Source of the DNA: Cucumis sativus
Taxonomy: Eukaryota; Streptophyta; Magnoliopsida; Cucurbitales; Cucurbitaceae
Assembly: GCF_000004075.3 (NCBI RefSeq)
Contig: NC_026659.2
Location: 4,526,001 to 4,590,000, forward strand
Reading direction: 5' to 3'
Length of the DNA: 64,000 bases
Part shown: positions 4,561 through 51,875 of the stretch, one piece after another
Layout: the number at the start of each line of letters is the position of its first letter
Position numbering within the stretch: position 1 is the first letter of the stretch
Translations under genes and position numbers: made by a program
Notes under the pieces: model-generated
What the model saw: only the letters and a program-made list of their open reading frames with translations
What the model was told of the DNA's origin: nothing
The model's database searches: none

Positions 4561-4566
4561 TATGAG

Positions 4567-7110: not shown

Positions 7111-7216
7111 CCCAATATGTTCATTCTTCTCTTCGGGTGAAATTAAAAAAGTTAAATTAGGGTTTCTATACCTCTTGGGCTTCTTTGAGTTTGTTGTCTG
7201 TGGAATTTGGGCGGGC

Positions 7217-19677: not shown

Positions 19678-21048
19678 TCAAAACATACCTGCTATACCAG
19701 GCTTTGTTGAGAGGTCCAGCTTGTAATAAAACATGTCCGTGAGCACCTTGTTCGAATCAAGAGAAGCCCTCAGCAACTCCACGCCCTTTGAGACCAAAAC
19801 CCCAGAAAGTAACTCAAACAAACAGTATATCATAACTCACAACAGATATAACCTTTCCAAATCTATCAATAAATGCCCAAATCTTCTAAAAATTATTTGA
19901 TGTCTTATATTACAATACCATGTATGTTAAATATCTTCTTGTATTTAGAAAACTGCCCAAAATGTGGCATGGAAGTTTAAGGTTTACGTGTGATTGGTCT
20001 CGCAAATTTCAATACCAAAATTTTAGTCCTGAGTTTGAGAAATTGGTCTAAATGTCTATTTAACCTTTTCTTCGTATTTTACTCTTTTTCGTTAGATAAA
20101 GTTAAAATGGAGAAGATGGAGTTCGTACAATGACCAGAGGCAGGAGAAGAACAAAAAAAAAAGGGCAAGATCAGTAGCAAGAACGTTAGTCAGGTTAAAA
20201 TATGTTGTTTCTCAAAAGAAAAGAATCAAACCATTTCTAGTGTAGTGAATCAATAAAAGAAAGATAATAACCTCATTACTGAGATGGAAAGGAATAACTT
20301 TCTCCTCAATATGGCGAATATCCTCCACATTCAACTGAGTCAACATCGAAATAGTAGACATAGAAGATGTAATGGGCTTAACAGTTAGATCATCCATAAC
20401 CATATACGTAACCATTCCCCCAGCCCCAACCACATAACCATCTCCAAGATCATAGTGAACATACAATGCTTCAGTAGTCATAATTTCGGAACATTTGGTG
20501 CATCGCGCAAAATATCCATTACTAAAACTATCAGGACACGAAGAACACGTGAAGTACTTCGGTTCTGAAGCCGAAGAAGAAGAACCCAATAGATATTTTA
20601 ATTTAGATGGAAGATGGGGGTTTAGGAGACTCTCCTTTTTCCGATTTGATTCGAAATAGTTGGTTTTCATAGAGTTGGCGCTACGGTAGAGACTTGAGAG
20701 GGAACCAATCATGGGAGTAACAATGGTGGGTGAGGAAGGAGCGGTGGAGAGTAGTTTTAGGACGGTTCCGATAGGGAGTGAAAGTATAGAGAAGAGGAAG
20801 TCTACGAATTTGTTGTCGGCTTCAGCGTATAGAATTCTTTTTTGTTTGTTGTCTATCATTAACTTTAAATTGATTACCTCAGTTTGGGTTAGGATTTTTT
20901 GTGGGGTATTAGTGTCAGAGCTGGTTTGAGGAGATTTGTTTTGAATTTTGGGTTGGGAATGGATAGACATATTTGTTGTTTCCTCTCTTCTTCCACTAGG
21001 TTCCTCCCATGGTCCTCCTCCCTCAACTGATTGTTTTTGACTCATCAT
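19678..21048 (-). CDS. DUF674 family protein (locus 1, intact)
   Basis: Minus-strand exon 1 20272-21048 and exon 2 19678-19785 (phase 0, GAG|GT..AG|GGC), 294 residues. Function unknown: DUF674 (PF05056) is a plant-specific family without a known activity. Seen: an N-terminal extension of about 57 residues rich in Ser/Thr/Gln not found in the other copies; the core starts near 58 (NLKLMIDNK, ILYAEAD, DFLFSILSLPIGTV); a zinc-ribbon-like set CSSC..CTKC at about 167-186; the block YMVMDDLTVKP; then IEEKVIPFHLSNE at the exon end. Exon 2 gives GVELLRASLDSNKVLTDM followed by a private tail. A TATA-like TTTATAAA (reverse of 21141-21148) lies about 95 bases upstream of the ATG. It belongs to the YAEAD/..NYFE subfamily together with the loci at 24755, 25961 and 35862. 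Confidence 0.88.
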
Positions 21049-21988
21049 AGAAAATTTTCTGATTAGACAGGAGCGTGTGTGTGAATAAATCGAAGAGTCA
21101 GAGCTCGACTCTTGATTTGTATTTAAAACTTTTACTAGGGTTTATAAAACCATGAATTTACGGCCGTCTAATCATGTAATCATGTTAAACCCTAAACCCT
21201 ATTACATATAAAGTATTGGCTCCACGGCAGAATTTACAATATTGCACCAGTGAAGTACAAAATTGAAACAACGTCAATGGTGAAATAGAAATCCATAATC
21301 AACACTAACTACACGATAAACTAATGAATGTACAAACCAAATACTCTTAAAAAATTTAATTTGCACCACATTATTATAAAAAATAAATGATTATAGTCTT
21401 ATTTCTCAATCAAGTAAAAATCTATTGTTACCTTCATGCCATCATAAAATGTTTGAGGTAGATAATTGGTATATAATATTTTTATCAAAAAGTTGATAGG
21501 ATTGCAATGCATCGATTCAAGGAGTAGTATGCAAGAAAAACTATACACTTTATTAGTTTAGGTCTATTTGATGGGTAAAAACTCATTGAGCCTTGTGTTC
21601 TCTTCTTATTCTCATTGTTTTGTTAGAAGCCCTAATACAACATCTCTAATATTTTGCAGCTCTCTACTTATTTCTCTCTAAAAGTTCTTACTTTGGGTCC
21701 ACTATATTACTAACTCGAATCTCAATTGGTTTTTTATACCATATATTAAAAGGTGGAACTTCGAAGATAAACCATTCGATGGATAACAAAAGATATCTAC
21801 ATATGATATATATATAATTGTTGATAATAGAACTGATGATCAAAAAGGACATCAATGACAGATTACACTACCATGGTTGAAATTTTAATCAATTTCCCAA
21901 CAAAAAATTAAAACATAATATCTAAAACGACCTAAACAAAAGACATCCATTAAAACTATCAAAACTAACATATTAATTAATTCTAAGA
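21049..21988. other. Intergenic between DUF674 loci 1 and 2
   Basis: Holds the probable promoter of locus 1 at its left edge and AT-rich DNA after that. AAACCCTAAACCCTA-like words at about 21183-21200 are interstitial telomere-type repeats of a few units. Nothing else recognised. Confidence 0.45.
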
Positions 21989-23847
21989 TTATGAGAGATT
22001 CGTCTCTACAAGGAAGACATCTGTGAGAATAGTCTTGGATTGCAGCGATGCCCCCAACAGCCTCACTCCCTGCGAAAATCAATAGAGAGAAAAGACATGA
22101 GGGATCAAAAGGTTGACACCTCTCTACCACCTTCATCACTTCCTAATATCAAAAAGATATTCGAGATGCAATTATATTAAAACATGAGCCACTGATTCTA
22201 AAAATAATTCATACAGAAAGGTTAATTACTAGATATACAACGTCAATTAAGATAACTTATATGTATAAATTTGAACCAGATACACGAGGCTGAGAGACAT
22301 AGATATACATAGATACATCAAGACATCTCAACAAAGTATACTGTTACTCTAATCTCTGGAAATCCAACATTTCTAAAAAGATTAAATTCTTCATGTGGTC
22401 TCTATGAACACCATGAAGATCCTTCAAAGGAAGCTTCGACAACACCATTCTTAATCCGAATTGGTGTCGGTTATGCAAATGCAAAAGCGAATTAAACCAT
22501 TGATCATTTTGTTCATCCAGTGTGATTTTGACAAGGTTATTTTGGAAAAAGACAACAAGCACAACAGAGTGGAAAAACGACAGTGATCACAACATTCTTT
22601 GATCTCTGCTCCAGCATTTGTCACAACCGCTATTCCAACACCAACGATATCATCCAATTCGAATTAATTGGTCACTGCTGCCTAATGGACCCATATATAA
22701 TGAACATAACAAATGTAATTTCAAGGACACCGAAAATAGCCTTCTAAACACATTGGAGGAAATCTGTTGGTTGGAGGTTTGGTCTCACAAAAACAAACTC
22801 TTTCAAGATTACAATGCTGCTCACATAACTATCAAAACTCATGCTTTCTGCAATCTATAGGACATTTGTAATGAGCTTATCCCTAGTCCTGAACTTTTTT
22901 TGTATTTCTATGTGTTTAATGAATACCTTCTAATGAAGATGTTTAAGTATACTCCTGACCGTTCGTATATATTCTTTTCTAAAAAGAAAGATAAATTTCA
23001 TGTTTATGCCAGTAGTGTTTACCAAATTTAAGTTTTTAAAAATAAAAATCTATACCAAATACTTATCAAAGGAGTAAAAACTTCAAATACAACTTTTATG
23101 TCAATTAAGAAATGTGTATTATGATTTCCCAATCCAACGTCTCATCAAATAAAAAAAGGTAATAAATAATATATACATTTTACCTCATTGACATCCAAAG
23201 TGATGAGCTTCTCCTCCAAAACACCCACATCTCCGATATTAAACTCCTTCAAGAGAGTAATGCTTGAAATGGAGGACATTGGTTTGACACTCAAATCACA
23301 TCACCATGTACGTCACCACATCCTTTACAAACCCTAATCCATTGTCTTCTCCACTATTACTTGTCTGTTGTGTAGTTGCATTCCAATCACTTGGGGGCTG
23401 CACATACGTACCCACTTGGTCCATATAGTTAGAACAAGAGGGACAAATCGCATCAACACCATCAGATACCGAGTGCCCACAAGTAGCATACTTCTTTGTA
23501 TTGCATAAATAAAATGATTTTGCAGTAGTTGAGGAATCAATAACAATATCAGGCAAAAGTTTGGTCGTTGTTGAACAATAAATGGAGGCTTTAGGCTTCA
23601 AAAGTATGTCTTTATTTTGACCTGGCTTCATATATGTATCGCTCAACGTTTGAACGCTCTCGTACACATTTTCTAAGCTTCCTAGCACGGTTTGGTTTTT
23701 GAGAAGAGTGACGACAGTCCCAAGTGGGAGAGAAAGTAGATTGAAGATAAAGTCTATGAACATCTTGTCAGCTTCACCAAAAAGAACTCTTTGTTTTTTT
23801 GTGTCGATTAGTAGCTTCAATTTCACATCAGATGATTGTGTCGCCAT
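21989..23847 (-). pseudogene. DUF674 family gene (locus 2), frameshifted, LINE fragment in intron
   Basis: Minus-strand exon 1 23184-23847 and exon 2 21989-22069. The start ATG at 23847 (MATQSSDVKLKLLID) is preferred over upstream non-ATG extension. The core reads well to VVTYMVM; there two bases are missing near 23297-23300 compared with the sister copies (VMDDLSVKP), so the frame is lost, while the following bases still spell the usual SVKPM..ITLLKEFNI..EEKLITLDVNE in another frame up to a good donor. Exon 2 encodes GVRLLGASLQSKTILTDVFL plus a short tail. Splice sites are intact, so the break is recent or an assembly error. Cysteines of the ribbon-like region are kept (CGHS..CPSC). The intron (about 1.1 kb) contains a LINE remnant. 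Best match inside the window is the broken copy at 39171 (shared KPKASI and LLPDIV). Confidence 0.8.
22372..22960 (+). mobile_element. LINE remnant: 3' part of reverse-transcriptase ORF (zf-RVT region)
   Basis: On the plus strand the stretch reads, with interruptions, KKIKFFMWSL, then NPNWCRLCKCKSELNH, then a frame of 80 codons at 22618-22860 ending ..LEEICWLEVWSHKNKLFQD. This order is that of the zinc-binding zf-RVT region found after the reverse transcriptase in plant L1-type LINEs (K(I/V)KFF.W..., PNWC.LC...E...H). The first half contains several in-frame stops. No RT core is left. It lies opposite in strand to, and inside the intron of, the frameshifted DUF674 locus 2. Confidence 0.65.
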
Positions 23848-24308
23848 TGATGTGCCTATGCCCACTCTCAAAATGGTGCAATGAAAAACTTCTTTTTTGT
23901 TTTCTTAAATTCATAGAATTATATTGGGTAAATATTTGATTATTTGATTTTATGATTTTGCATTTTTGTTTCATAAATAGGACATTGGAGTTTGACGTGT
24001 TAATATGTAAATTTTTAAACTTTCAAGTCTGGCATATTTTGGAATGAAAACTTAAATTATTAAATTTGAGGTTAGGTTTTGACTAATTAGACAGTAGGTA
24101 GACTTTGTTTGATTATAATATTATTAAATTAAATTATGGTTTTTGATATTTTTCGAACTTTTAGGCAAATCACTACACCAAAATTGATTTAAGCGGTAAA
24201 CATACGATCAAGATTGGTGTAAGATTCAACAATTACAAAAACACATGTATAAAATAAAATCTACCTAATTACAAATAAAAATTCTCACATTGTATCACAA
24301 AGCCAACA

Positions 24309-24421
24309 AACAAAAAAGAAGAAGAAAAAAATGAATTAGAAGAAAGAGAAAAAAAAACACAAACCAAAAAACAAAAAAAGAGGAAGAAAAAAGAAAGAAT
24401 TAGGAGAAAGAGAAAAAAAAC
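24309..24421 (+). repeat. Purine-rich imperfect tandem duplication
   Basis: Two copies of a purine-rich unit (GAATTAGAAGAAAGAG / GAATTAGGAGAAAGAG followed by A-run and CACAA/CACTT) with a period of about 64 bases. Located upstream of the truncated DUF674 locus 3. No coding potential. Confidence 0.55.
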
Positions 24422-24754
24422 ACTTCAATCAATAGTTTATGGCACTAAAAAATTTGTAGGAAAAAAAATCTACACTATCCTCCAAATAGTTTCAAAACTA
24501 CCATGTTCTCCAATTTTATTTTAAAATCATCCATTTTTCCTAATCGCCATCAAACTAAAGGCAATATGAATATAGATCGTCTCCCCTACATCTCTTACTT
24601 CTCTCTTACTTCGTCCCAACTGTACTCTTTGGTTTCCCCATGGTATCGTAATCGAAGCGTCAAACAAAACAGCATATGTACAACACAACAGTAGTGCATT
24701 TCTTAGTTACAAGAAATCAATCTTATTTCTGTAAAAAACAAAGAAGAAGAGGAG

Positions 24755-25090
24755 ATGTCTTCTACTTCTAATTCTAAAGAAGAAATGAGTTTGAAGCTTT
24801 TTATAGACAAATCTAAGCGAAAGATTCTATTCGCTGAGGCGGACAAGAGCTTCATCGACTTCCTTTTCGCCATCCTCACTCTTCCCATCTCCTCAATCCT
24901 CGGCCTTGTACCTGTTGGAGCCAAAGCTGGCCCATTTACAAATCTTTACAATAGCGTCGAAAACTTGGATGCAGTCAACTATTTTCAAGAAAACCATTTA
25001 AAAAACAATTTGCTAAAGCCTAAGCTTCATATCCCGAAATCTCGCATACCCCTTTTCCCAATCAACGACTTTCTTTTAAATAAATGGTAA
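24755..25090 (+). pseudogene. DUF674 family gene fragment (locus 3), N-terminal third only
   Basis: 111 codons: MSSTSNSKEEMSLKLFIDK, ILFAEADKSFIDFLFAIL, NLYNSVENLDAVNYF, LLKPKLH, then IPLFPINDFLLNKW and stop. It covers the first half of exon 1 of a YAEAD/NYFE-subfamily copy and keeps an open frame, but the cysteine region, the MVMDDL block and exon 2 are absent. Downstream a short sequence ATCAACGACTTTCTTT occurs twice (about 25062 and 25133), marking the point where the homology ends; a deletion or insertion there is likely. It could still be transcribed as a short protein, but by comparison with its sisters I call it a truncated copy. Confidence 0.75.
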
Positions 25091-25960: not shown

Positions 25961-27918
25961 ATGGCGGAAGTATACAAGGTGAGTTTGAAACTTGTTATAG
26001 ACAAGAAAAGGAAGAGGGTTCTATATGGTGAAGCAGACAAGGAATTCATCGACTTTCTTTTTACTATACTTGCTCTTCCTGTTGGAACTGTGATTAAGCT
26101 TCAATCCACAGAACCCATGCTGCCTGGCCCCCTCTCAAATCTCTACTGTAGTATGGACTCCTTGAACACGATCAACTATTTTGAACCAAAGCGGCGTCTA
26201 CAAAATCTACTAAACCCAAAGACCTATTATTTATGTAATAACAATTATAGAAAGCAGTCCTCTTGTCACAGTGTTAGTAGTACACATGGCACAAAATGTC
26301 CCAACTGCGGAGGATACATGACTATCAATTTAGCTTATGTTTATGTGGATGAGGAAGAAAAGCTTATTGAAGGAGGTTATGTGACAGGGATGGGTAAGTA
26401 TATGGTGATGGATGATCTTACTGTGAAACCCATGGCCTACTCTTCCATGTCCACCATTTCTGTTTTGAATGAGTTGAATGTAGATGATATTTCCCAGATT
26501 GAGGACAAGCTTATTCGTTTGGACATCAAAGAGGTTTTCCTTTCTTGCTTTTGCTTTTTAGTTCTTTAATGCTTAATATTCATACTTTTTAGTTCTTTAA
26601 TGCTTAATATTTATACTTTTTAACCACTTACATGTTTCAATGTTTTGGTTTTGCTTACTTTATCCCTTTTTTGTTAACCTCAAAACACTTATTTTTCCTC
26701 ATGGATTATTGCGATGAGAAAATTCACGATAATGATCAATTGTTATCACTTTAGGAGTGCAAATCAGGAATAGTGTATTTAAAAAGTTGAGTTGTGTATT
26801 TATTCTGTTGTATTTTAAAAATACTTTTGATAACAAAGTGCATCTCGACTAGGTTGAGTTTCTTGTGTATAAATAGAATAACTATGAACTCTTTTCTATT
26901 TGCTGAACAGGAAGACTTTTTTTTCTAGCCTCTTCGCCTTGATATGAACCTTCAGATTTTTTCAGCTCTCTCTTTTGTATAACTTAATTTCCTGATTAAT
27001 GCATCCCTTTTAGATCGGAGGTGATAAAGGTTCTAAAGCCGTATCAATATCAATGTAGTTGAGATGTTTTGATACATCTCCTAATTCCTCAACTTGTTGA
27101 ATTTTGTTCAAAAGTATTTTATATAAAACACTATCTTTACTCATAATACCAAAGAACACTTTCTTATAAAACACTTTCTTATAATGCATCCCTTGCAAGT
27201 ATATGTTCTTTTATTGAATTTTTTTAGAAAACTTTAACATAATATATTTAGAGAAAAAATAGTTAATGGTTACAAAGAAAACAGGCCCTTAGATTGTGAT
27301 ATGCTTTTTTTTCTCCTGCCTTAGATTGTGATATACTTTTTTTTCTCCTTTTTTAATTAACGAAACTAAAGTGATTTATGGATTTTGAAAAAAACTGTGG
27401 TTGAGTAGCATATTTAAGAGGGTAATACTTGATTCCCGATTGCACTATCTTTCTACATCCCCTCCTCATTATTACTCACATCAAACAAAAAAATTAAAAT
27501 ATTTCATAAAATAAATAAAAAGAATTTGTTGATAGGATAATTTGATGAGATACACGAAGATAGGTAGGTAACGTTGAGGGTGTATTATTCCAAAGTATTT
27601 TTTTATTTAGAAATAGTCAATGAAAGGCAATTTAGAGAATCAGGGTTTGGTCGTTGATTATCAATGAAATAGTTGTAATTGTGTAAAATTAAGATTTAAT
27701 AATACAATTTTTAATTTTAATTATTTAATCCCTTTTAGGGTTCGAATTTGCTGAAAGCTTCCTTCCACACGTCCACTGTGCTCACTGAAGTGTTTCTTCT
27801 CCAAACTCGTGATAGTATTCCAACAAACAAACAATTAGAGGAGGAGGAGGAGGAGGAGGAGGAGGAGGGAGGAGGAGGAGGAGTAGTTTATGGGTTTTCC
27901 AATAAAACATCAATTTAA
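25961..27918 (+). CDS. DUF674 family protein (locus 4, intact, Glu/Gly-repeat tail)
   Basis: Exon 1 25961-26533 and exon 2 27739-27918 (phase 0; GAG|GTTTTC .. TTTTAG|GGT), 250 residues, function unknown. Exon 1: SLKLVIDKKRKRVLYGEAD, DFLFTILALPVGTV, NYFEPK, a cysteine set CNNN..C..KCPNC, YMVMDDLTVKPM, DDISQIEDKLIRLDIKE. Exon 2: GSNLLKASFHTSTVLTEVF, then QTRDSIPTNKQL, ten Glu, five Gly and VVYGFSNKTSI. The Glu/Gly run is encoded by a GAG/GGA microsatellite at 27838-27882, so repeat-length change alters the protein tail. If the intron were missed, the frame would stop at 26569 after 11 unrelated codons. A TATA-like TATATACA lies at 25868. The 1.2-kb intron holds two small tandem duplications. 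Confidence 0.85.
26556..26625 (+). repeat. Tandem duplication in intron of DUF674 locus 4
   Basis: A unit TTTTTAGTTCTTTAATGCTT AATATT(C/T)ATAC occurs twice with a period of about 31 bases, just inside the donor side of the intron. A second tandem pair (CTTAGATTGTGATAT.CTTT, period about 33) lies at 27290-27352. Confidence 0.7.
27838..27882 (+). repeat. GAG/GGA trinucleotide microsatellite inside a coding exon
   Basis: A run of GAG triplets followed, after one extra G, by GGA triplets. It lies in frame within exon 2 of DUF674 locus 4 and encodes Glu10-Gly5. The change from Glu to Gly codons comes from the phase shift in the repeat. Confidence 0.85.
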
Positions 27919-28631: not shown

Positions 28632-29775
28632 ATGGAACAAAATCATGTGATCAGATTGAAACTTCTAATAGACACAAAAGGCCAAAGAGTTTTATTTGGA
28701 GAAGCAGATAAAACCATAGTGGATTTCCTTTTCCATTTACTTTCTTTTCCACTTGGAAGTGTGTGTGAGCTGCTGAAAGGCCAAAATATGGTTGGTTGTT
28801 TGGGGAATTTGTATCGAAGTGTTGAAACTTTGAACCAAAATTATTTGCAACCAAACAGTAACATACAAACCTTCTTGGAACCCAAAGTCATTTCTTGTGG
28901 TAATACTTCAGTGGGGTTGCCCTATACTTCTGATCCCTCACCTTTGCCAAAGTTTTATGTTTGCAATTCTGATTATAGCTATAGTTGCCGTTTTTATGTG
29001 TCTAATGATCCTAAAGCACTTTGTTCTAATTGTGGGCTGCACATGAGTCGAGAGATTACTTGTGTAAAGCCAATATCTTACTGTGAGGATTTAGGCTATG
29101 TGAAGGATTTGGTGACTTACATCGTGATGGATGATTTAAGTATTATGCCCATGTCTAGTATCCCCACCATTACTCTCTTGAAAAAGTTCAATATCAAAGA
29201 GATGGCTGCTTTGGAGGAGAAGCTCATCACTTTCAATTTCAATGAGGTAATATATATTATTTGAACAATTCTTAATTATAATATAGGCTGTAGCGTGCAG
29301 TTTATGTTCTTCTGTATGCATAAAAAATAATTTTTAAGAACTTTTTTTTAAAAGAAATAAACAAAGTACAACGTTATAGCTTTTAAAGCATGTGTTGAAT
29401 TTTTGGTATAAAAAATACTTTGGTGCATTTTTGGTATCACATATCGGGCCAAATTGTCCATAAATTATTATGTGACAAGTTCCTTTATAATATGAATTTC
29501 CACTAGTATTTACTAAAATAAATTCATTAGGTGAACAAATGAAATGTGGACTAGAAAATTAAATATCCAATGAGGTATATTTTTAATTTGTTATTAAGGT
29601 CACAGTTTGTGGTTATCTTTTTATGAAGGGAGTGAAATTGTTAAAGGCTTCTCTCGAGTCCAAGACAGCGCTCACCGATGTCTTTCTTGGAAAAGTTTTA
29701 AGTCCTCCAAAAACTGTTTCGAATGGAAAGAAACCCACTCCAAAAGTTACAGTAAAAAGGAAGAGAAGGAAATAA
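28632..29775 (+). CDS. DUF674 family protein (locus 5, intact, basic tail)
   Basis: Exon 1 28632-29246 and exon 2 29629-29775 (phase 0; GAG|GTAATA .. TATGAAG|GGA), 253 residues, function unknown. Exon 1: RLKLLIDTKGQRVLFGEAD, VDFLFHLLSFPLGSV, GCLGNLYRSVETLNQNYLQ, cysteine set VCNS..CRFY..CSNC, YIVMDDLSIMPM, ALEEKLITFNFNE. Exon 2: GVKLLKASLESKTALTDVF then a Lys/Arg-rich tail (TPKVTVKRKRRK) that could act as a nuclear localisation signal (inference). Belongs to the FGEAD/LLSLPLG subfamily; closest in the window to locus 9 at 43205 (shared NYLQPN/TYLQPN, SLPYSDP-type segment). The leader contains a partial copy of the gene's own first codons (28601-28630). The acceptor is not pyrimidine-rich, a slight oddity. 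Confidence 0.88.
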
Positions 29776-30809: not shown

Positions 30810-31340
30810 AAGAAAAAAAAATCACATGATACACCTAATACATCTAGTACACATGGATACACCTTGATATATCACTAGTCACATGATACATGATTAATAA
30901 TATACATTTGATACACGTGATAGTAATATATAATGTATATTTAATGAACACTTGATTTACGGTTGGTACACATTTAATACACACTTGAAATATTAAATAT
31001 TTGGATTTTTAATAAAATGTTTTGAATTTTTGTTAAAGGATTGAGAAAAGAAAAATATAAAACCACAAATACATACTATTATACCGGAAATTAAAATAAT
31101 CTACACACTAAAATCAAATTATTATAACTCAATTATAATAACCTATGACTATAATAATTCACTAATTACCTCAAAGGTCTACTAAAAAACACTTTACTCT
31201 AAAGTTGATTAAGATCAACTTGTTTACAAAAATACAGATTGTTTTATTTTACCCAAATACCATTAGGCATATTTACTCAACTGCCAATAAATTAAAATCC
31301 TTTAATATTTTTTCAATTTAACATTTATGTATATAAATAT
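30810..31340 (-). repeat. Composite dispersed repeat, copy A (TTATAATA block plus TACAC block)
   Basis: TTGATACAC/CTAATACA words (30820-31000) are followed by TAATA/TTATAA words (31080-31190) and by AAATACCATTAGGCATATTT and AATAAATTAAAATCCTTTAATATTTT (31200-31330). Read on the minus strand, the last two parts match 60820-61060 in the same order, so this is one element present twice in opposite orientation. No coding capacity. Confidence 0.65.
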
Positions 31341-31439
31341 TGGAAATTATTAAGAAATTTAACAAAACACCAAAATATTTATAGTTCGTGTAACAAAATA
31401 TATAAATCAATGAAGCCGACCATTTTTTTAATATTATAG

Positions 31440-33679: not shown

Positions 33680-34857
33680 ATGGCAGGGTCAAGTGGTGAA
33701 GTGAAATTAAAGCTTCTTATAGATTCAAAAGAAAAAAGAGTTCTTTTTGGTGAAGCAGACAAGAACATGATTGATTTTCTTTTCAATCTCCTTTCCCTTC
33801 CGCTTGGGACTGTGATTAGGCTTTTGAAAAAAGACATGGCTGGAAGCTTGGCTAATTTGTATGGGAGTGTTGAAGCTTTGAATGACACGTATTTGCAGCC
33901 AAATCAGAGCAAAGACAGCCTCTTAAAGCCTAAAGTTTCATTCTCTGCCTCTACCTTGCTTTTGCCAAACATTGAATCGTTTGCTGACCAAAAGAAGCTG
34001 TACTTATGTGGTAATAAATGTGGCTATAACGTTGCTAGTAACCCTACGGCGGTTTGTCCGAATTGTAGGAGTGCAATGAGTCGAGAATGTGGATTTGTAA
34101 ATCCACCAAGTGCAAATGCACAGGCAACACAAGATGTGGGAGAATTTGGAGGATTTGTGAAAGGTGTGGTAACTTATATGGTGATGGATGATTTGAGTGT
34201 CAAACCAATGTCCACCATTTCTAGTATTACTCTCTTGAACAAGTTTAATATTAAAGAAGTTGGTGCTTTGGAGGAAAAAGTCGTTACTTTGGATGTTAGT
34301 CAGGTACATTTTTAATTAGTATTATTTGGTCAAATTATTACATTTTTCATTTTTAACAGTAACAACTTCTAGGTTGATGGTCATTTTATAAAAAAAAAGG
34401 TTATTACAGTAGGATTTAAAATAATTTATGTTTAAAGTTTAAATCATTCTAGTTTGACATGTGTTTATAGTGTAAAATGTTTTACTTGATACAGAAATAG
34501 TAAAAATGCTTACAAATAATAAAAAATGACGAAAGTAAAATAGTTTAAATTGTATTAGGATGAATTAAATCTACTTTATTTTATTTGTAAATATATTAAT
34601 TTATTTGGTTACATTTGATAACAACATTTATATATTTTTATTATATAGTAACTTATTTTCGGGAATCAATTTTTATAAATGGTGGCTCATATTTTAGCTT
34701 CATAGCATTTTGAATATGTTCTCTGTTGGTATGATAGGGATTGAAGCTGCTGAAGGCCTCCCTGCAATCCAAGACTGTTCTTACGGATGTCTTCCTTGGA
34801 AGAAATTTAAAATTATCGAGTTTACCACGTTTCAGAAATCAATCAATTTTTGATTGA
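33680..34857 (+). CDS. DUF674 family protein (locus 6, intact)
   Basis: Exon 1 33680-34303 and exon 2 34738-34857 (phase 0; CAG|GTACAT .. GATAG|GGA), 247 residues, function unknown. Exon 1: MAGSSGEVKLKLLIDSK, RVLFGEADKNMIDFLFNLL, SLPLGTVIRLLKK, ANLYGSVEALNDTYLQ, LKPKVS, cysteine set CGNKCGYN..CPNC, YMVMDDLSVKPM, ALEEKVVTLDVSQ. Exon 2: GLKLLKASLQSKTVLTDVF then LGRNLKLSSLPRFRNQ and stop. The tail and its 3' flank (TACCACGTTTCAGAAATCAA) recur near 36248, next to the broken locus at 35862, so a piece of 3' flank was also copied. FGEAD subfamily. Confidence 0.9.
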
Positions 34858-35045
34858 AATGTTTAGAATTCAAATTTCAACCTGTTGGAGTATTGCAATT
34901 AATCTATTTTGAGAAAAAATTATTATTACGATCTGTTTTGTTTTGTTGGACTGTATCAACTCCCTATCGGCTACTATCAACAAGTTATTTTGATTGAAAT
35001 GTTTAGAATTCAAATTTCAACCTGTTGGAGTATTGCAATTAATCT
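34851..35045 (+). repeat. Direct repeat of 55 bp, spaced by 85 bp
   Basis: TGATTGAAATGTTTAGAATT and the next 35 bases (to ..GCAATTAATCT) occur at 34851-34905 and again at 34991-35045 without visible mismatch. The first copy overlaps the stop codon and 3'UTR start of DUF674 locus 6. The stretch between contains CGATCTGTTTTGTTTTGTTG. Confidence 0.85.
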
Positions 35046-35861: not shown

Positions 35862-37312
35862 TTAGAAGGAGAAATATGAGAAAACTATTGAGGAAGGAGA
35901 AATATCAGAAAAATATTGAGAGAAGTCAATGCTGGAAAGAAAGAGGTCAGTTAGAACAGTCGATGAGTGAAGAGAAGCCCTTAGCAACTTCGCAGCCTAC
36001 ATAAACCCAACATAACCAGACCAAATCAATATAAATTTATTAATTAAAATCTCAAACAAAAAATTACAAATCTCTTCGATTAGCTTTCAGATCTGCCTGA
36101 TTTGATCCTAGTGTGTGTGTATATATTTATATATATATATAGACACAAGTGCTTAATATATATTTATATTTATGTAGCATTGAATATGGTGTGCTACTTG
36201 TTATGAGTCTTTGACAAATCTAAAATCTAAACAATGTTTAAATTATTGAGTATACCACGTTTCAGAAATCAATCAAGTCTTCTATTGCAAATTGATTTTG
36301 AGTTGAAATCCAATACTTTCAACTATGAAATCAGCCCACAAAGCTTCATCCATATTACTCGGTCCAAAGAAAATTGAGATCCAATCATCAAAAATAGTGA
36401 AACCAAAAGAATCACATTGGGGGCATATCTGAAATCCAAAAGAGTCACCCTAGACCTATATGGCCAAATAAAAATCTAAAAACCTAAGTAGATATCAAAT
36501 TGAAAGTTTTAAGAATCAAATACAATAATCAAATGAAGCGTTTATGAGCATATGGAGCACAAAATTTAGAATTCAATAATCACATACATGTTGGACGTTG
36601 AAATGAATAAGCTTGTGATACATGGTCAACATTCTCCACATTCAACTCCTTCAAGACCGAAATGATGGACATAGTGGAACACGACATGGGTTTAACACTG
36701 AGATCATCCATCACCATGTACGTTACCGCGTTCCCTCCTTTCACATAACCTCCCACAACAGGCTTTGCTTCACCCATTCCATGTACATAACTTGCAATAG
36801 TCGTCATGGATTTGCCGCATCTTAGACATTTCGTGCCACTTGTCACAGTAAAAGTAAGACAGTTTTCGGTAATAACAAGATTAGAACGATCATAATGAAT
36901 TGGACATGTGTAATAGGCCTTTTAGTTGTGAAGACGAAGGAGATTGGATTTGTAAAAGGCTTTGAATATGGGATTCAGCAGTGGGTGTTGGGAGCTGAGG
37001 ATTCAGGAGGCTCTCTTTGTTGTGGTGTGCATCAAAATTGTTAAACTTAAGCTCCCCACGCTGCGGTAGAGGCTTTCCAGAGAACCAGCTGCAGCCATGG
37101 GTTTGTTGTCTGGGTTGCTGCTACTGGATACCAACTTAACCATGGTTCCAACAGGAAGAGCAAGTATCGTGAAGAGGAAGTCTACAAATTTCTTGTCAGC
37201 TTCAGCATATAGAATCTTCTTCCTTTTTTTGTCTATCGCTATCGATTCGCTTTCGATCTGAGTTTGAGTTTGAATGTGGATGCCACTCCCTCTCCCTGCC
37301 CCTCAATCCCAT
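35862..37312 (-). pseudogene. DUF674 family gene (locus 7), several frameshifts
   Basis: Minus-strand exon 1 about 36588-37312 and exon 2 35862-35996. Recognisable blocks lie in different frames: IDKKRKKILYAEADKKF, LYRSVGSLS, then NNFDAHHNKESLLNPQLP, then YYTCPIHYDRSN, then CLRCGKSMTT, YMVMDDLSVKPMS, and LIHFNVQH before a donor CAT|GTATGT. At least four frame changes separate them (near the start, about 37040, about 36920 and about 36615). Exon 2 is open: AAKLLRASLHSSTVLTDLF with a hydrophobic, Ser-rich tail. Subfamily YAEAD/NYFE. The open frame left at 36580-36846 is only a remnant of exon 1. Confidence 0.82.
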
Positions 37313-38564: not shown

Positions 38565-38822
38565 GATGTAATTGATGATCATTTGAAGAATAATAACTAA
38601 AAATATAGTAACATTCTAAAAAAATTACAAATATAGCAAAATTATCGTTGATAAACTTGTATCGACAATAGACTCGTATTATCACTTGTAGACCAATATG
38701 GTGTATCGGTGATAGACTTCTATTATTGATTGAATTTGACAAATTTTTCTATATTTATAATTTTTAAAATTTTAATATATATTTAATTGTTTTAAATTTA
38801 ATTGCTAAATTTGCAACTATCA
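38565..38822 (-). repeat. MITE-like dispersed repeat, copy 2 (reversed)
   Basis: On the minus strand it starts GTTGCAAATTTAGCAATTAA, continues with the TCTATCACCGATA-type dyads and ends TTAGTTATTATTCTTCAAAT, in the same order as the copy at 4567-4823. The dyads are more diverged than in copy 1. Confidence 0.65.
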
Positions 38823-39170: not shown

Positions 39171-39884
39171 ATGGCCCAACCATCCACTATGAGATTGAAG
39201 CTTTTGATTGACAGAAAAGAACGAAGAGTTCTTTTTGGTGAAGCAGACAAGAACTTCGTAGACTTTCTTTTCAATCTACTCTCTCTTCTCCTGCTTGGGA
39301 CTGTCATAAGGGTTCTCAAAAACCAAACCATGGTAGGAAGCTTAGGAAATGTGTAGGAGAGGGTACAAACCTTGAGTGATGAATATATGCTGGCAGGCCA
39401 AAATAAAGATGTACTTTTGAAGCCTAAAGCCTCCATTTGATGTTCGATGTCCATCCTTTTGCCTGACATTGTTTCTAATTCCTCAACTACTGCAAAAACA
39501 TTATTTGTATGCACAAATACGTATGCTAAATGTCTGTACTCGGTTTCGCATGGTGTTAATGCGATTTGTCCCTCTTGTAATTGCTACATGAACAAAGTGG
39601 GTACGTATGTGAAGCCAGACAGTCACAGTGACGAAAGTGAAAGTGAAAGAAAAAGAGAAGGTACTAAAAGCGAAAGTGAAAGCGAGAGTGAAAGTAAAAG
39701 TGCAACAATACGACAGCCAAGTAGTGGGAAAGATGTTTCGGGGTTCGTCAAACACAAAAGTGTGGTGAGCTACATGGTTATGGATGATTCGAGTGTGAGG
39801 TCCATGTCCACCATTTCAGGCATTACTCTCTTGAACAAGTTTGATATCAAAGATTTGGGTGCTTTGTCGAACCTCCCTTGGTAA
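39171..39884 (+). pseudogene. DUF674 family gene (locus 8), two stops, 3' end lost
   Basis: Exon 1 reads MAQPSTMRLKLLIDRK, RVLFGEADKNFVDFLFNLL, then meets TAG at 39354-39356 (where sisters have a Tyr codon, NVYE) and TGA at 39438-39440 (sister: Tyr, KASIYC); the frame is otherwise kept to 39884. After the cysteine part (CLYS..CPSC) there is an acidic/Ser repeat (DESESERKREG, SESESESESKS) not present in the sisters, then YMVMDDSSVRSMS and ITLLNKFDIKDLGAL. The homology stops abruptly before the EEK block and is followed by SNLPW and a stop that come from a dispersed repeat. No exon 2 is found downstream to 43.2 kb. Closest relative: locus 2 at 21989. Confidence 0.82.
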
Positions 39885-41739: not shown

Positions 41740-42326
41740 ATTAATGATCATAGCATATATCTGTCACTTAATACTTGTTGGAAATTATTCAATGCAGCAG
41801 CAGGGGCTTATATATTAGGCAAAAGTTTCGGTTTTTTTGTGATTATATCTGATATACTTTGATTTGGTTGGTTGCATATATGATTCGTTTAAGGTAACTA
41901 CACTACACTCTTGTACAGATTTCCTAATTAAGCTTCCCACCATGTGTTGTGCTTTGGTTATGAACGGCACAGTTTAAATATGATCATCCCATGAACTGAT
42001 TGATTCTTGAGAAGTGTGAGTTTTCATTTTCCAAAAAAACTTTAGTTTATTTTCTCTTTTCCCACTACTGATCCTTTGGTTATGAACCGTACAGTTTGAA
42101 TATGATCATCTCATGAACTGATTGATTCTTGAGATGTGTGAGTTTTCATTTTCCAAAAAAAAAAAAAGTGTAATTTATTTTCTCTTTTCCCATTACTGAT
42201 CCTTTGGTTATGAACCGTACAGTTTGAATATGATCATCTCATGAACTGATTGATTCTTGAGAAGTTTGAGTTTTCATTTTCTAAGAAAAAAGTTCAATTT
42301 ATTTTCTCTTTTCCTATTACTCTTTC
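41740..42326 (+). repeat. Segmental duplicate with a 122-128-bp unit in three tandem copies
   Basis: Begins AATGATCATAGCATATATCT and GCAGCAGCAGG, then has three tandem copies of a unit that starts CTTTGGTTATGAAC and contains TGATCATC(T/C)CATGAACTG and TTTATTTTCTCTTTTCC; units start at about 41951, 42073 and 42201. The same flank plus a single unit lies at 45136-45420, so the block was duplicated around DUF674 locus 9 and the unit amplified on one side only. Confidence 0.85.
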
Positions 42327-43149: not shown

Positions 43150-43157
43150 CTATAAAA
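43150..43157 (+). promoter_or_regulatory. TATA box of DUF674 locus 9
   Basis: CTATAAAA 48 bases upstream of the ATG at 43205. Transcription would begin near 43180, leaving a leader of about 25 bases. Position and sequence fit a plant TATA box; not shown experimentally here. Confidence 0.45.
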
Positions 43158-43204
43158 TCAAATGTCCAATGACAAAGTAGCTGAGCATTTAAAAGTTGAA
43201 AAGA

Positions 43205-44215
43205 ATGGCTCGAAGGGTTGTGAGTATGAAGCTTCTAATAGACAAGAAAGGGCAAAGAGTTGTATATGGCGAAGCAGATAAAACATTTGTGGACTTCCTT
43301 TTCCATCAACTTTCCCTTCCACTTGTAACTGTTTGTAAGCTCCTCAAACAACAAGGCATGATAGGCAGTTTGGGAAATCTGCGTCAAAGTGTTGAAAGTT
43401 TGAACCAAACTTATTTGCAACCAAACAATAACGCAAAAACTCTTTTGAATCCCAAAGTTGTGTCAGTTTGTGATTCAACTTTGTCCCTGCCTTATTCTGA
43501 TCCCCCAGATTTACCTAAAGTTTACATGTGTAGTCGTAATAATGGGAGTAGTAGTCCTGACTGTTATGGCTGTCGTACCTCTTGTGAGTACTACATTTCG
43601 ACTAACCCTTACGCAATTTGTCCAAATTGTAATAAGTACATGAACCTAGAGGCAACTTATGTTAAGCCTCCGCCAGGTGGAAGCTGTAAGTCAGTTAGTA
43701 CATTTGGTACTGATAATAAAGAAGAGGGAGGGTATGTGAAGGACGTGGTTACTTATATGGTTAAGGATGATTTGAGTGTTAAACCAATGTCCACTATCTC
43801 TACCATTACTCTCTTGAACAACTTCAATATAAAAAATGTGAATGCTTTGGAAGAGAAACTCGTCACTTTGACCGCCAATCAGGTACTTCTGTCTAGATTT
43901 ACATTTTTTTTTTCTTTTTTGAACCATGTACTAGAGAAAAGGAGAACCCGACCCCTAAGTGAAGGAAAATTGTTCATTGCCATATGAAGAAAGTATAACT
44001 TTGATGATTTTCATTTTGTATATTTTTGTCCAAACCTACGAAACATAGAATCAAATTTCATCAATTTTTATAGAGAACTTGAATTTATTATGAAATGTTT
44101 ATGACTAGGCTTGTAATTTATTTATTTGTGTTTTGTTGGTTTAATTTGGTAGGGAGTGAAGCTGCTGAAGGCTTCTCTACAATCCAACACTGTCCTCACT
44201 GATGTCTTCCTTTGA
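43205..44215 (+). CDS. DUF674 family protein (locus 9, intact)
   Basis: Exon 1 43205-43882 and exon 2 44153-44215 (phase 0; CAG|GTACTT .. TTTGGTAG|GGA), 246 residues, function unknown. Exon 1: MARRVVSMKLLIDKK, RVVYGEADKTFVDFLFHQL, SLPLVTVCKLLK, GNLRQSVESLNQTYLQ, a cysteine-rich insert (CSRNNG..CYGCRTSCEYY..CPNC), YMVKDDLSVKPM (Lys where sisters have Met-Asp-Asp spacing MVMDD), ALEEKLVTLTANQ. Exon 2 is only the conserved block GVKLLKASLQSNTVLTDVFL with the stop immediately after it; it has no private tail, unlike the other copies. FGEAD/LLSLPLG subfamily, nearest to locus 5. The ATG at 43205 is chosen; an upstream in-frame extension has no ATG. Confidence 0.88.
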
Positions 44216-45135: not shown

Positions 45136-45420
45136 AATGATCATAGCATATATCTGTCACTTAATAGTTGTACGAAATTATTTAATGCAGCAGCAGGACT
45201 GATATAGGGCATACGTTTGATTGAAGAATTGATAAGGTTTCTATACTACACTTTTGTAGAGATTTCCTAAGCTTCCCACCATGTGTTGTCCTTTGGTTAT
45301 TTTGAACCGTACAGTTTGAATATGATCATCTCATGAACTGAATGATTCTTGAGAAGTGTGAGATTTCATTTTTTTAAAAAAAAAGTTTAATTTATTTTCT
45401 CTTTTCCCATTACTCTTCTT
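45136..45420 (+). repeat. Segmental duplicate, single-unit copy
   Basis: Same order as 41740-42326: AATGATCATAGCATATATCT, GCAGCAGCAGGA, CTTCCCACCATGTGTTGT, then one copy of the unit (TGATCATCTCATGAACTG .. TTTATTTTCTCTTTTCCCA). It lies on the other side of DUF674 locus 9. Confidence 0.8.
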
Positions 45421-46299: not shown

Positions 46300-46570
46300 C
46301 TAGGAAAAGTCTTATATTAGTTTGTGTTTAGATTGAAGAGTGTTATAGTTTTAATTATGATAGTCTGCCTTTAAAAACAAAAAGTATTATAATATATGTT
46401 ATGATAGTCTGCATTTGGAGTACAAACTATCATAATATGTGATGTGATAAACATTGTTTGAGGAGTAGACGATTACAAACTAGTTTTTCACTCAGTTTTT
46501 TAACTAGATGTAATAAACAATTTTCATAAATTGATTTTATTAAATAATTTTGATTATGATATTTATTTAA
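46300..46570 (+). repeat. TTATAATA-rich dispersed repeat, long copy 2
   Basis: AGTGTTATAGTTTTAATTAT, TATAATATATGTTATGATAG, GGAGTACAAACTATCATAAT and then AATTGATTTTATTAAATAAT and GATTATGATATTTA follow the order seen at 15520-15920. Confidence 0.5.
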
Positions 46571-47596
46571 TAAATTTAACATTAATCATGATGTTTCATC
46601 ATTTTTTTTTGCATTTATATTTTGTACATCAAATTAAACAAGCTTCAAATTACAACATTTCCATTTCCACTAATCTTTTTGTCCATGCATATATATTTGA
46701 CATGAAATGCAACATTTTTCTTAAAAGCATTTTCACCTATCTTAATTACAACATTCATTTCATAAATTAAAACTACTATTATTAAAACGTTATTTTCACT
46801 ACATTTTTTTTCATGCATATATATATGATACATCAAATGAAAAAATCTTTTTAATTACTATACTCATATGATAAATAAGGTTTTGGACTTCTTTTTGCAC
46901 TAATTATTTTTTTCATACATGCATATATATTTTTCATTAAAATACAAAATTTTGCTTCAAATTAAATTTTTTAATCTTCTTAATTACAACACTCATTTCG
47001 TTAGTTTTCACTAATTTATTTTATTTTTGGAGTACGCATGTAAGGGAAAACATATAATTACAGACTAATATTATTAAAATTATTATACTATAACAAATAA
47101 ATAAAAAAAGGGAATCTAAAGAGAAAAGTTAATGAACAATGTTTAAAATCAATGAACATATAATTACATTTATATAAAAAAGTGTCTTTTACAGTAACGT
47201 ATAGTTAATCCAAACAAACAGTTCCCCAAGTTAGGTAAAATTTGAGAAAACCCTAATTTTAGTTTTATATATAGAAGATTTAAACTCTGACCTAATTGTT
47301 TCAATCCCACCCCTTTACCTCAATTTTTTTACAAAAAACAACCCAGTTATCCAAAAAAAAAAAGAAAAACCCAGACGCCCATTAGATATTGAAACATAGT
47401 TCAAAGTAGAAACAACTAAATCCTAAACCTAGGAAGTAACAAGTATTTTACCCAAAAACATGAATAAAGGGATAAAGAAAAGCTTGTTAAAAGAGAAAAC
47501 ATCTCTGTTAGATGGATTGATAAAATTGCTAGTGTATATATGTGTGTGTGTTTGTTAATTCAACCCATCATCATAACACACAAAATAAAAAAAATA
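46571..47596. other. Intergenic, no gene seen
   Basis: AT-rich DNA with repeated CATGCATATATAT words (46685, 46813, 46918) spaced by about 110-130 bases, which suggests old tandem units. A TGTGTG/TATATA stretch lies at about 47533-47552. No gene recognised. Confidence 0.4.
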
Positions 47597-48283
47597 CTAA
47601 ACGACTTGGGACATTATTTTTGAAGAAACATAAACAAAAAACAACATAATGAAGAAGCACTTAAGCGGATAAGGCAAATTAGCCTTAAAAGTGGGCGGCA
47701 GAGACTTCTTCTTAAGAAAGACATCGGTAAGAACTGTGGTTGAGTTAACAGATCTCTTCAACAACTCCACAGCCTACAAACCAAATAATTTAAATTAATG
47801 GGTTAGAGTGAGTTTCATATTTAAAATGAAATTTGATATCTCGGTGCACAAATTAAGGTGTTGAATCACTATCAGGAACCAAAAATCGCGTTATCAAAAA
47901 TACCAGATCAACCATATTTTAAATAACTATTAGCAGACCAAAACCTTAATTAATCATATAGCCCAGATGATTTCATAATAAGTTTTTGGAAGTATATCGG
48001 GTCTTCAAACAAGGCAGTAGCTTTACGAAGAAAAAAAAAGGCATGAACAATATTACCTTATTGATATCTCCAAAGTAGAGATAGGAGACATGGGCTTGAC
48101 CGACATGTCGTCCATGATCACCATGGAAGTCAACAAACCCTTTTCAACAAGAGGAAGGTTAAGTATATGGAAAAGAAAAAGGGTGGAGTTCTTGTCAACA
48201 GCTTCACCAAAAAGAACTCTCTTTGACTTGGAGTCAACCAAAAGCTTTAATTTCACATCGGCAATTGCCAGTGATGAAGCCAT
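47597..48283 (-). pseudogene. DUF674 family gene (locus 10), large internal deletion
   Basis: Minus-strand exon 1 48057-48283 and exon 2 47597-47773. Exon 1 starts MASSLAIADVKLKLLVDSK and RVLFGEAVDK, then jumps from LNLPLVEKG directly to MVIMDDMSVKPMSPIS: the linker, the cysteine region and the LLNKFNI block are missing (about 130 codons). The last bases before the donor (AATAAG|GTAATA) correspond to the sisters' VNE end but are out of frame with the preceding part. Exon 2 is open: AVELLKRSVNSTTVLTDVF, KKKSLPPTFK and a hydrophobic tail, 58 codons. Leader CCCATTTTGAAAG just before the ATG is shared with loci 2 and 11. Confidence 0.78.
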
Positions 48284-50448
48284 ATCTTTCAAAATGGGGC
48301 TAACCAAAGAACTATTGTTAGGCCTTTGTTGAAGGGAAATTAGTAAAGTGATTGGCATTGGCTGTAAAATATACTATGATTTTGTTGATGCATGCAAGAT
48401 CGATATAGAGAGAACTATTAATTAATTTGCATGGGAAGTGTGAAGGTCGTCGCTTTGTCCAAGAAATTAAAAATGTTTAGGGTTCCTAAAAAGGCATTAA
48501 ATTGTTGTTCTCAAGAATAATGGTGGGACAATGTAAAGAGATCATATATTGATCAGGATCCACAATCTTTCAAAATGGATTGAAAGTCAGATAATACGTC
48601 GTTGCAATCATAATTTACGAGGTGTTCTTTTAGAGACACTTGATCATATGGCAACTTCTAGAGATGATTTGTAAGAATGTCAAAACAAAAGATTAACAAG
48701 ATTTACGGCAAAATTCCTTGTGAATAAACTTGTTATATCTTCTACCTTATAACCAAATTTCTATTCATTTTATTAGATTTAAAATTTAAACTTCAAACGA
48801 TTTCAAAAGCCAGTGGAATCAATAAACTTTTTTATGGGCAATGCCAAGTTGTGTTTGCAAATGATCCTAGACAATCGGGATAAAGACGTTGCGAATATAA
48901 TCTCAACAATTGAAGGGGACATCTGACACAAATAGACGAAACATAGATGAAAATTAATAGGGATTATGGCTATGGGCAAAAGTGTGAGTTTTGTAAATTT
49001 GTTGGCTAAAAATTGAAAAGCTTAGATTGAGGTAAGATATGAGTTTATCTTCATACGGGGAGGAGTCAAATTGTTGTATAAAGTTTAATAAATGTGCAGC
49101 CTCAATTATATGAGTGTACTGAGAAAGAAAGGAAGATGAGGATCAAGAGATGTAAATTAGGATTTATCATTCATTTATGATGGGTTGAATGAGAATATTT
49201 TAAAAATAATTTCTATTACACAATATCTATCACTAATAAATTCTTTTATATCAAACATCAAATAAAATAAGATTTGTTCTTTTAGATTTACGTAAAATCA
49301 GATTTTATAATTTATAAACTTTAAATTTTATTCTTTGAAAATTAAGATTAATATTTATATTATATATATATAATTTTTCTCAATCAGTATTTATAGCAAC
49401 TATTGTAATTATATGGATTATTTATTTTCTTTATTCCACTTATGCTCTTATTTGGAATTAAATCTTCACCAATTTTTCTCTCCTGTCTCAACGATTATAT
49501 AGTAATTGGGATAATTATTTGATTTACCCATGCCCTCTTTTAAGTAGTCGATGGTTACAAGTTCTAGGATTAATTTTACATTTAAATCATTAAGAAAAAA
49601 TCATATTAATAAGAAGTTCTTTAACAAATAGAAAAAAAATTACCCAACACTTGATTTATTGTCAAATGTTCTATTTTTTAATATCTAATCCGATCCAAAA
49701 CCTATTATAAATATATCATTCACATAAATTTCTTTCATACAAAAAAAATATATTTATCATTCTAATGGATTTAATTTATTTTAGTTTTGATTATTACTAA
49801 TGTTTGATTCTAGAAAAAATATTTATGAATATAGAGCATTATGACAGAGACATTTTATTGCTATATTTAAAAACAACCATTAACATTTACTAATCTGACT
49901 CTAAAATTTTGGAAGTAAGATATAATTGAAAGAAATGAACGTGTGAATAACTCAAGAGAAAAAAACTAAGAATAGTACAAAATTTTGGGTTTAATTATAA
50001 ATTTAAAATATATGGTTGGTTCCTAAATAGTCAATCCCTAGGGTTTGATAAACCCTCTGAATAGTCCATAAAATCTCTACTTTTAAACGATGAGACTGAA
50101 TTTTAACCTACAAAGTTTGTAACTAAATCAAAATTTAAGACAATTTTGAAACATTAGGGTGGAAAACTTCCCAAGTTAAAATAATGAAAATATCGATTTT
50201 CGAAAGTCAGTATTTGTCCATAACTATACAGTAATCCGTGAGGATAGGGCTACAACTCAAAATTCTTTGAAGAAATTGATTGTAGACTAAAGCTTTTAAA
50301 TGAAATGATATGGTTATCATCTTGTGGAATACATTACTAATGTCTAATCTAATTGATCTGATCAGCTTTCAAAACAATCAACAAAATGAAGTATTTACCA
50401 AACAGAAAAGTTGATTTGATTGATTCACATAACCCTACAAGCCCTCAA
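48284..50448. other. Intergenic, no gene seen
   Basis: AT-rich DNA, long A/T runs, no open frame of interest on either strand and no RNA gene recognised. Confidence 0.5.
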
Positions 50449-51875
50449 TTAAACAGAAGGGCTCAGAGATCCAGAAAGCTTAACATCATTGTCAATGTGT
50501 GATCTTCGTCTTTTCAGAAACGCATTTGTTAGAACTGTCTTCGACTGCAAAGAAGCCTCTAGCAATTCCACACCCTGTAACAAAAACTAACCTTGTTCAT
50601 CAAAATTTCCAACATGGACTCATAATGACATAAAATAACCCAGTTGAACTATAGATTTGGTCCATCATTTGAAAAAAGTTTCAATTTCATCTCTATAATT
50701 TAGAGTTTTCGATTTAAGTAATTAGTCACCATGATTTGGACTTCAACTTTAGTAGTCTCTGGTCCTTGTAGGCTTAAATGTTTTTTATTTGGTCTTTGTA
50801 GTTTTATTAAATTGTTCCTGCACATTGACATTGCATAACCTGATTCATTTAATTTTTTCCGGTTACCTCAACTATTATAACTTATAATTAACTACTTTAC
50901 TCTTTCAAATCCATACATATTAATGATCTCCTTTCCGCACTCTCTTTTTTTCTTGTTATAATGTTTATTACCATATCCAGACTTAAAATGCACCTCGAAC
51001 ACAATTATAATAACTCACAAACTATAAATACAAATTCATTAGGATTTAATAAATGATAGTGATGATTTTGGAACTTGGAAGTTTGACTAAACTGAAAGAG
51101 ACAAAAATTGAAACTTTTGAATATGAACTCCAGAGGAAAAAAATAGCAACGAAATATAGAACCTCTGCCCAAAACCACATAGATGAAATTCGTCAACATT
51201 TTACCCTAAAATAACCAACCGAATGAAAAGGAGTGGATATATATAAATTACCTCATTAACATCCAAAGTGATGACTTTCTCCTCCAAAGAATCCACATCT
51301 TTGATATTGAACTTCTTCAAAAGAGTTGTAATGGAGAAATCAGAAATGTGCTTGACAGTGAGGTCATCCGTGACTATGTAAGTGGCCAAATCCTTAACAA
51401 AGCCCCGATCAGGAGCTGGCTGATTTCCTGCTTTTGGAGGCGTCACATATCGACAAGCTTGACTCAAGTTTTTGCTACAACTCGGACAAAATGCACTACA
51501 AGAATAAGAAACATAACCACGGCAATATGATCCAGTGACGCAATAAAATATAGCAGGCGGTGTTGCTGCAGCAGGGACGACATCAACATTAGGCATAAGT
51601 TTGGTGAAAGAATTGAATACGATTTTTGGTTTTAGGACTATATCTCTGCTTTGATTTGGCTGCAAATAGGAATTGTTCAACGTTTCTACACTTTCGTACA
51701 GATTTCCCAAACACCCCACCATGCCATCCTTTTTCAACAGCCTAATTACACCCCCAAGTGGGAGGGAAAGTACATTGACAAGAAAGTCTATGAACTTCTT
51801 GTCTGCTTCACCGTAAAGAACTCTTTCTGTTTTCTTGTCAATCAGAAGCTTCAATGTCACATCCGTTTGTTCCAT
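50449..51875 (-). CDS. DUF674 family protein (locus 11, intact)
   Basis: Minus-strand exon 1 51252-51875 and exon 2 50449-50574 (phase 0; GAG|GTAATT .. GTTACAG|GGT), 249 residues, function unknown. Exon 1: MEQTDVTLKLLIDKK, RVLYGEADKKFIDFLVNVL, SLPLGGVIRLLKK, GCLGNLYESVETLNNSYLQ, LKPKIVF, cysteine set CVTGSYCRGY..CPSC, YIVTDDLTVKH, LEEKVITLDVNE. Exon 2: GVELLEASLQSKTVLTNAF then a basic stretch LKRRRSHID and a Ser-rich end. Leader GCCCATTTTGAAGG precedes the ATG. The coding region lies in the LLKK/GCLGNLY subfamily with loci 5, 6 and 9. The intron is about 680 bp. Confidence 0.9.

Follow-up and report, generated by a model that had tools for sequence, protein, structure and literature searches.

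An array of intact and decayed DUF674 genes between an MKP1-like phosphatase gene and a ribosomal protein L23A gene in Cucumis sativus

DUF674 among clustered plant gene families

Gene clusters that evolve by birth and death in plants include those of NLR, F-box and receptor-like kinase genes. The locus described here resembles them in being a tandem array on both strands, in which intact and decayed paralogues stand side by side and whose copy number probably varies between species, but it differs in that its copies are old, their dN/dS is low and a recognition role is only putative. The cluster is an ordinary case of birth and death within a known plant family, DUF674 (PF05056, IPR007750). 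Nine of nine reading frames from the array score above the curated threshold of that family, whereas the genes themselves seem to consist of a single unit of about half the length of the Pfam model. Pattern-based scans for relatives outside plants returned 594 stretches from GTDB genome contigs (prokaryotes) and 56 from IMG/VR (viruses), none of which was confirmed.

DUF674 is reported from pine to rice, in the available excerpts without an assigned function (PMC7667757, PMC3723872), and none of the open-licence papers returned by full-text searches carries its name in the title. The excerpts describe a rice egg-cell protein as DUF674 (PMC3723872), mention the family in ovaries of apomictic Hieracium (PMC5054587) and in Eucalyptus cambium (PMC4923158), list DUF674 genes in nematode-infected alfalfa (PMC4339843) and in a wheat rust experiment (PMC5179980), and place a differentially expressed one in a barley mosaic-disease resistance interval (PMC11726411). 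DUF674 is also among the domains listed for clover NLR proteins (PMC11734081), comes up in connection with a tomato carotene marker (PMC9846345), and is mentioned in a wheat salt GWAS (PMC9289626) and in pine under aluminium stress (PMC7667757). DUF674 genes are likewise mentioned in a leaf-metal GWAS. Two rice 'TDC' genes are cited as a DUF674 subfamily, a label given second-hand (PMC12162789), and in mango the family is reported to have contracted by 9, the authors noting contrasting family results from another mango genome (PMC7898432). Given that these contexts are scattered, no one role is indicated, and neither defence nor reproduction is singled out.

Gene content and decay of the array

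The window, that is, the whole stretch of 64,000 nucleotides that was analysed, contains eleven recognisable DUF674 copies between positions 19678 and 51875 (Table 1), six of them apparently intact (A, D, E, F, I and L) and five broken (B, C, G, H and K), with strands running - - + + + + - + + - - from left to right. Nine exon-1 reading frames, those of A-F, I and L and an open piece of H, were compared with Pfam, and all nine matched PF05056 with E values from 1e-5 to 6.3e-39 and 25.1-134.5 bits, against a curated cut-off of 24.4 bits. A tblastn search of the same nine frames against the window recovered all eleven copies, and so also G and K, which were outside the Pfam set, while on the reversed window the nine exon-1 queries gave no match at E<=0.01. 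The copies, their states and their strands thus agree with what an earlier note had read from the DNA; its inventory was nevertheless incomplete, as it lacked two relics (at 41.8 and 45.2 kb) as well as a piece that is probably a scrap of exon 2, and these bring the array to eleven recognisable copies plus two or three scraps.

Table 1. DUF674 copies, relics and flanking genes in the window
Feature	Position	Strand	State and details
Left neighbour, MKP1-like dual-specificity phosphatase	7070..9793	+	large open frame; PF00782 1.3e-26, PF25466 (MPK1_gelsolin_C) 1.6e-29
Copy A	19678..20970	-	apparently intact; exon 1 20970-20272, exon 2 19785-19678 including stop; GT..AG intron 486 nt; CDS open; PF05056 E 3.8e-35; possible alternative in-frame ATG upstream at 21048
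Copy B	21989..23847	-	broken; one two-base frameshift near exon 1 end; donor and exon 2 (22069-21989) sound-looking
Copy C	24755..25090	+	broken; 5' remnant, ~100 codons; PF05056 E 1.9e-20, best at profile 243-331
Copy D	25961..27918	+	apparently intact; exon 1 25961-26533, exon 2 27739-27918
Copy E	28632..29775	+	apparently intact; exon 1 28632-29246, exon 2 29629-29775; basic run at end
Copy F	33680..34857	+	apparently intact; exon 1 33680-34303, exon 2 34738-34857; PF05056 E 3.2e-37
Copy G	35910..37290	-	broken; no in-frame ATG before domain; frameshifts; exon 1 end lost; exon-2 relic at 35996-35910
Probable F-type exon-2 scrap	36240..36275	+	12 residues; E 0.007; 92.5% over 40 nt
Copy H	39171..39884	+	broken; two in-frame stops; shortened
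Relic, middle of exon 1	~41818..41973	-	seen by eye in translation and by match to 45.2 kb segment
Copy I	43205..44215	+	apparently intact; exon 1 43205-43882, exon 2 44153-44215 (20 codons and stop); PF05056 E 5e-31
Relic, middle of exon 1	45211..45303	-	tblastn E 0.0003
Copy K	47597..48283	-	broken; most of exon 1 gone by internal deletion; exon-2 relic from 47773
Copy L	50449..51875	-	apparently intact; exon 1 51875-51252, exon 2 50574-50449; PF05056 E 6.3e-39
Right neighbour, ribosomal protein L23A	54310..54825	+	main open frame; PF03939 1.8e-19, PF00276 4e-13

All six intact copies share one gene plan, in which an ATG opens an exon 1 of 191-233 codons, followed by a GT..AG phase-0 intron of 270-1205 nt and an exon 2 of 20-59 codons to the stop. 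Exon 2 carries a conserved peptide, which in F reads LLKASLQSKTVLTDVFL. Two local repeats touch the ends of these genes: a GAG triplet repeat at 27838-27883 codes for consecutive glutamates in the tail of D, and an identical 58-nt direct repeat (34848-34905 and 34988-35045) begins in the final codons of exon 2 of F and is a recent local duplication.

The five broken copies each carry different lesions, and the graded decay that the earlier note had proposed is seen in the lone frameshift of B, the internal deletion of K and the 5' remnant that is C. The only lesion of B lies in a gene that is otherwise sound, and it may reflect an allele still segregating or an error of sequencing. Exon 2 of H was not found in the window. 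The 41.8 and 45.2 kb relic segments are 73% alike over 339 alignment columns, and the scrap compares with a best E of 0.14 in the exon-2 search of the reversed window. Beside both relics lies a 128-nt non-coding unit, present three times head-to-tail at 41952-42321 and a fourth time at 45289-45417. With the exception of the relic segments (41.7 and 45.1 kb), no non-coding match at E<=1e-4 links the flanks of one recognisable copy to those of another, and the remaining non-coding matches at that threshold are local or dispersed repeats. The latter include three pairs, possibly small transposons: 4565-4830 with 38567-38818 (78%) and 31116-31325 with 60808-61024 (74%), both inverted, and 15691-15883 with 46385-46563 (69%, direct).

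Eight frames around and between the copies were also given to Pfam. The array lies between the phosphatase and L23A genes of Table 1, both of which are probably orthologous to Arabidopsis genes; the phosphatase peptide VHAFPLSPSSLLRMY in the window corresponds to VHAFPLSPTSLLRMY in Arabidopsis (PMC10950278, excerpt; phosphosite mark removed). In the excerpts available, AtMKP1 is AT3G55270 (PMC10950278) and RPL23aB, one of two Arabidopsis RPL23a genes, is AT3G55280 (PMC7545930). The two locus codes being consecutive, Arabidopsis seems to have no DUF674 array between these genes; the numbering suggests this, and it would also accommodate a gene numbered later. The DUF674 copy number in the MKP1-RPL23A interval therefore probably differs between species. 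Beyond L23A, Pfam identifies an F-box/LRR open frame of the At1g61320/AtMIF1 type at 59155-60150 (-), and the frame beside it at 58438-58722 has no Pfam match. The window also holds a tRNA-Val(AAC) at 14505-14578 (+) and a tRNA-Gly(GCC) at 56302-56372 (+), the latter followed after 11 nt by the C/D-box snoRNA snoR114 at 56384-56474, a layout that we take to be a plant tRNA-snoRNA dicistronic gene of a known kind.

Selection on the copies and a putative zinc ribbon

The intact copies are old and under purifying selection. Their amino-acid identities are 40-60%, and the NG86 method gave dS of 0.87-2.05 and dN/dS of 0.23-0.43 over all 15 intact pairs (the CDS of F taken without its final three residues); dS is close to saturation, so the omega values are rough. 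The NG86 figures are quoted because YN00 gave no result in 10 of the 15 pairs and maximum likelihood placed dS at 8.8-17.7 in four. A one-ratio codon model yielded an omega of 0.28 (lnL -4732.9), and fixing omega at 1, with kappa held at 1.5 (fitted value 1.36), lowered the lnL to -4832.4, worse by about 99 units. Old divergence together with low dN/dS points to turnover inside an old array and not to a recent burst.

Birth and decay, as the earlier note had it, is borne out by the graded lesions and by B and H, both broken, which among ten pairs compared (gapped codons and stop codons, 0-2 per pair, removed) are closest in dS (0.33) and stand highest in dN/dS (0.61 by NG86, against 0.23-0.43 among the 15 intact pairs). 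Changes that could be polarised number 31 nonsynonymous to 12 synonymous in B and 38 to 17 plus two stops in H, with 14 unpolarised, and both branch ratios approach the neutral expectation of 3.3:1.

Each intact gene would give rise to a small protein of 246-268 residues, without a secretion leader visible by eye. Basic tails in E (KRKRRK) and L (KRRR) resemble nuclear localisation signals, also by eye. Four cysteines are invariant in the alignment of all six intact copies, are kept in B, G and H wherever an open piece extends to them, and are spaced C-x(2-17)-C-x(10-11)-C-x2-C by hand count. Zinc-ribbon domains (Zn_ribbon_15, Zn_ribbon_recom and the double zinc ribbon) likewise have two pairs of cysteines separated by 10-11 residues, the second pair being C-x2-C; the array proteins differ in matching these families only weakly. 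In a loose Pfam search Zn_ribbon_15 matched two of the six intact copies (best E 0.015; 16.5 bits, cut-off 28.9), Zn_ribbon_recom one (E 0.014) and DZR one (E 0.19), and unrelated families were about equally weak (DUF7953, 0.045; PliI, 0.11). Zinc binding by the four cysteines is thus putative, resting on the residues and on sub-threshold matches.

Two AlphaFold models of the window's own copies, built from exon 1 alone (the exon-2 peptide being absent), reached mean pLDDT values of 46.5 and 57.7; in both, the N-terminus forms a hairpin with helices after it, and exon 1 closes on a helix and a strand, the middle lying largely below 50. Foldseek returned no match at E<=0.001, the best PDB match having an E of 0.95, and a profile search of PDB sequences gave nothing up to E 10. 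As the models are poor and Foldseek is without a match at E<=0.001, neither the fold nor partner binding has structural backing. Two ideas formed by eye were dropped, namely a BTB/Skp1-like fold (85 Foldseek matches at E<=10, of which the best 50 are all weak) and, from predicted secondary structure, an internal repeat of the N part and the C part, for which a profile-profile comparison was empty.

Leaving the cysteines aside, column identity is 25% in the ribbon region, against 57% in the N part and 55% in the C part (flanks 56%), and 68% in the exon-2 peptide. The ribbon-flank difference was matched by none of 20000 permutations (p 5e-5), in columns with at least five of the six residues and with region limits chosen after the alignment had been inspected. 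The ribbon region thus appears to evolve fast around a fixed frame; such low conservation can also mean little importance. Regional dN/dS was calculated for four of the 15 pairs in four regions, with 14 of 16 values measurable and the highest at 0.79; dS was not computable for the A-D ribbon and for F-L exon 2. The ribbon gave 0.33 in E-I, 0.79 in F-L and 0.33 in F-I, and exon 2 of A-D gave 0.71, from only 20 codons. No measurable value, gene-wide or regional, exceeds 1 in these pairwise comparisons, which are a weak test. As to positive selection in exon 1, which the earlier note named as a sign that would support an arms race, exon 1 does have one fast part, the ribbon region, with dN/dS of 0.33-0.79 (three of the four pairs), a range that fits loose constraint as well as diversification.

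These figures bear on the view, suggested by the earlier note, that the array reflects changing selection in defence or reproduction. In its stronger form, copies would come and go in response to shifting pathogens or to competitors in reproduction, and the ribbon loops would be under diversifying selection. The fast ribbon on its putative fixed metal frame and the F-L ratio of 0.79 would agree with this, as would the reports, given here from excerpts, from nematode-infected alfalfa, the barley mosaic-disease interval, rust-infected wheat and the rice egg cell (PMC4339843, PMC11726411, PMC5179980, PMC3723872). Excerpts also place DUF674, however, in cambium and in salt and aluminium stress (PMC4923158, PMC9289626, PMC7667757), and the duplicates are old and under purifying selection, with no recent burst and no measurable dN/dS above 1. 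We consider this explanation unlikely, and changing selection in defence or reproduction is hypothetical for the array.

Duplication history and a model of the array

Phylogenetic analysis separates two groups, A and D with C and G, and E, F, I and L with B, H and K, the split having a support of 100 in the codon tree, which covers the six intact copies, and of 95 in the nucleotide tree, which covers every copy. Within the nucleotide tree B-H (100%) and E-I (97%) are well supported, while F-L reaches 73% in the codon tree and is absent from the nucleotide tree. The pairings B-H, E-I and F-L, together with the grouping of G with A, C and D (95%), would allow a single block duplication in which A-B-E-F and G-H-I-L are two halves in the same order. 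The halves, however, share no non-coding similarity other than that of the relic segments and the exon-2 scrap of F, dS is unequal among the pairs (B-H 0.33, E-I 0.85, F-L 1.47), and F-L itself is missing from the tree of all copies; one block duplication is accordingly improbable.

The extent of the Pfam matches raises a different question, whether some adjacent units belong together as exons in a smaller number of longer genes with two units each. In A, E, F, I and L the match to PF05056 extends from profile positions 2-4 to 211-219 of 445 (some of the tested frames, L among them, ran a few codons into the intron, and the exon of F alone ends at 209), D has two matching stretches, of which 4-88 is the better, and the H piece matches at 378-431, in the other half from most copies, as does C (Table 1). 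The whole model is not covered by any gene, as intact exon 1s end at 209-219 and exon 2 adds 20-59 codons. The Pfam model would appear to be two units in tandem, and C, D, E and F do share the plus strand. The intact copies are, however, each complete in themselves, from the ATG through intron and exon 2 to the stop, the strand switches elsewhere, and E and F are separated by 3.9 kb, which makes two-unit genes quite unlikely; the simplest reading of the sequences is that the model holds two units and each array gene one. That every copy is drifting to death, the six open frames being leftovers, would suit the five broken copies of eleven and the relaxed constraint in B-H, but is very unlikely given an omega of 0.28, the loss of about 99 lnL units at omega 1, dS near or above 1, and open frames and splice sites whose retention at such divergence would be unexpected without selection.

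The explanation that we favour, and regard as probable on balance, is that the locus is a tandem array of long standing, made up of single-unit DUF674 genes under birth and death, and that its copies under purifying selection would have a zinc-ribbon frame and copy-specific binding partners. The array would have been inserted or retained between MKP1 and RPL23A, six copies being kept by purifying selection while others died singly. A hairpin-helix frame common to all copies would carry the zinc ribbon, the ribbon loops, as the most variable part, may provide each copy with a separate binding partner, and the loss of a copy would be tolerated because relatives remain. It can be speculated, as a rather unlikely extension of this single-unit array, that DUF674 units are small intracellular recognition proteins whose zinc-ribbon surface, displayed on an unchanging hairpin-helix frame with the four cysteines, differs from copy to copy, forming a set of receptors or adaptors that changes with its partners.

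We contend that six diverged and selected copies in one array are useful for the family in that they show constrained parts, the frame and the cysteines, against free parts, the ribbon loops. For a domain labelled as being of unknown function, this turns the matter into a question of zinc binding and partner choice, for which the invariant cysteines and the fast ribbon offer a testable lead.
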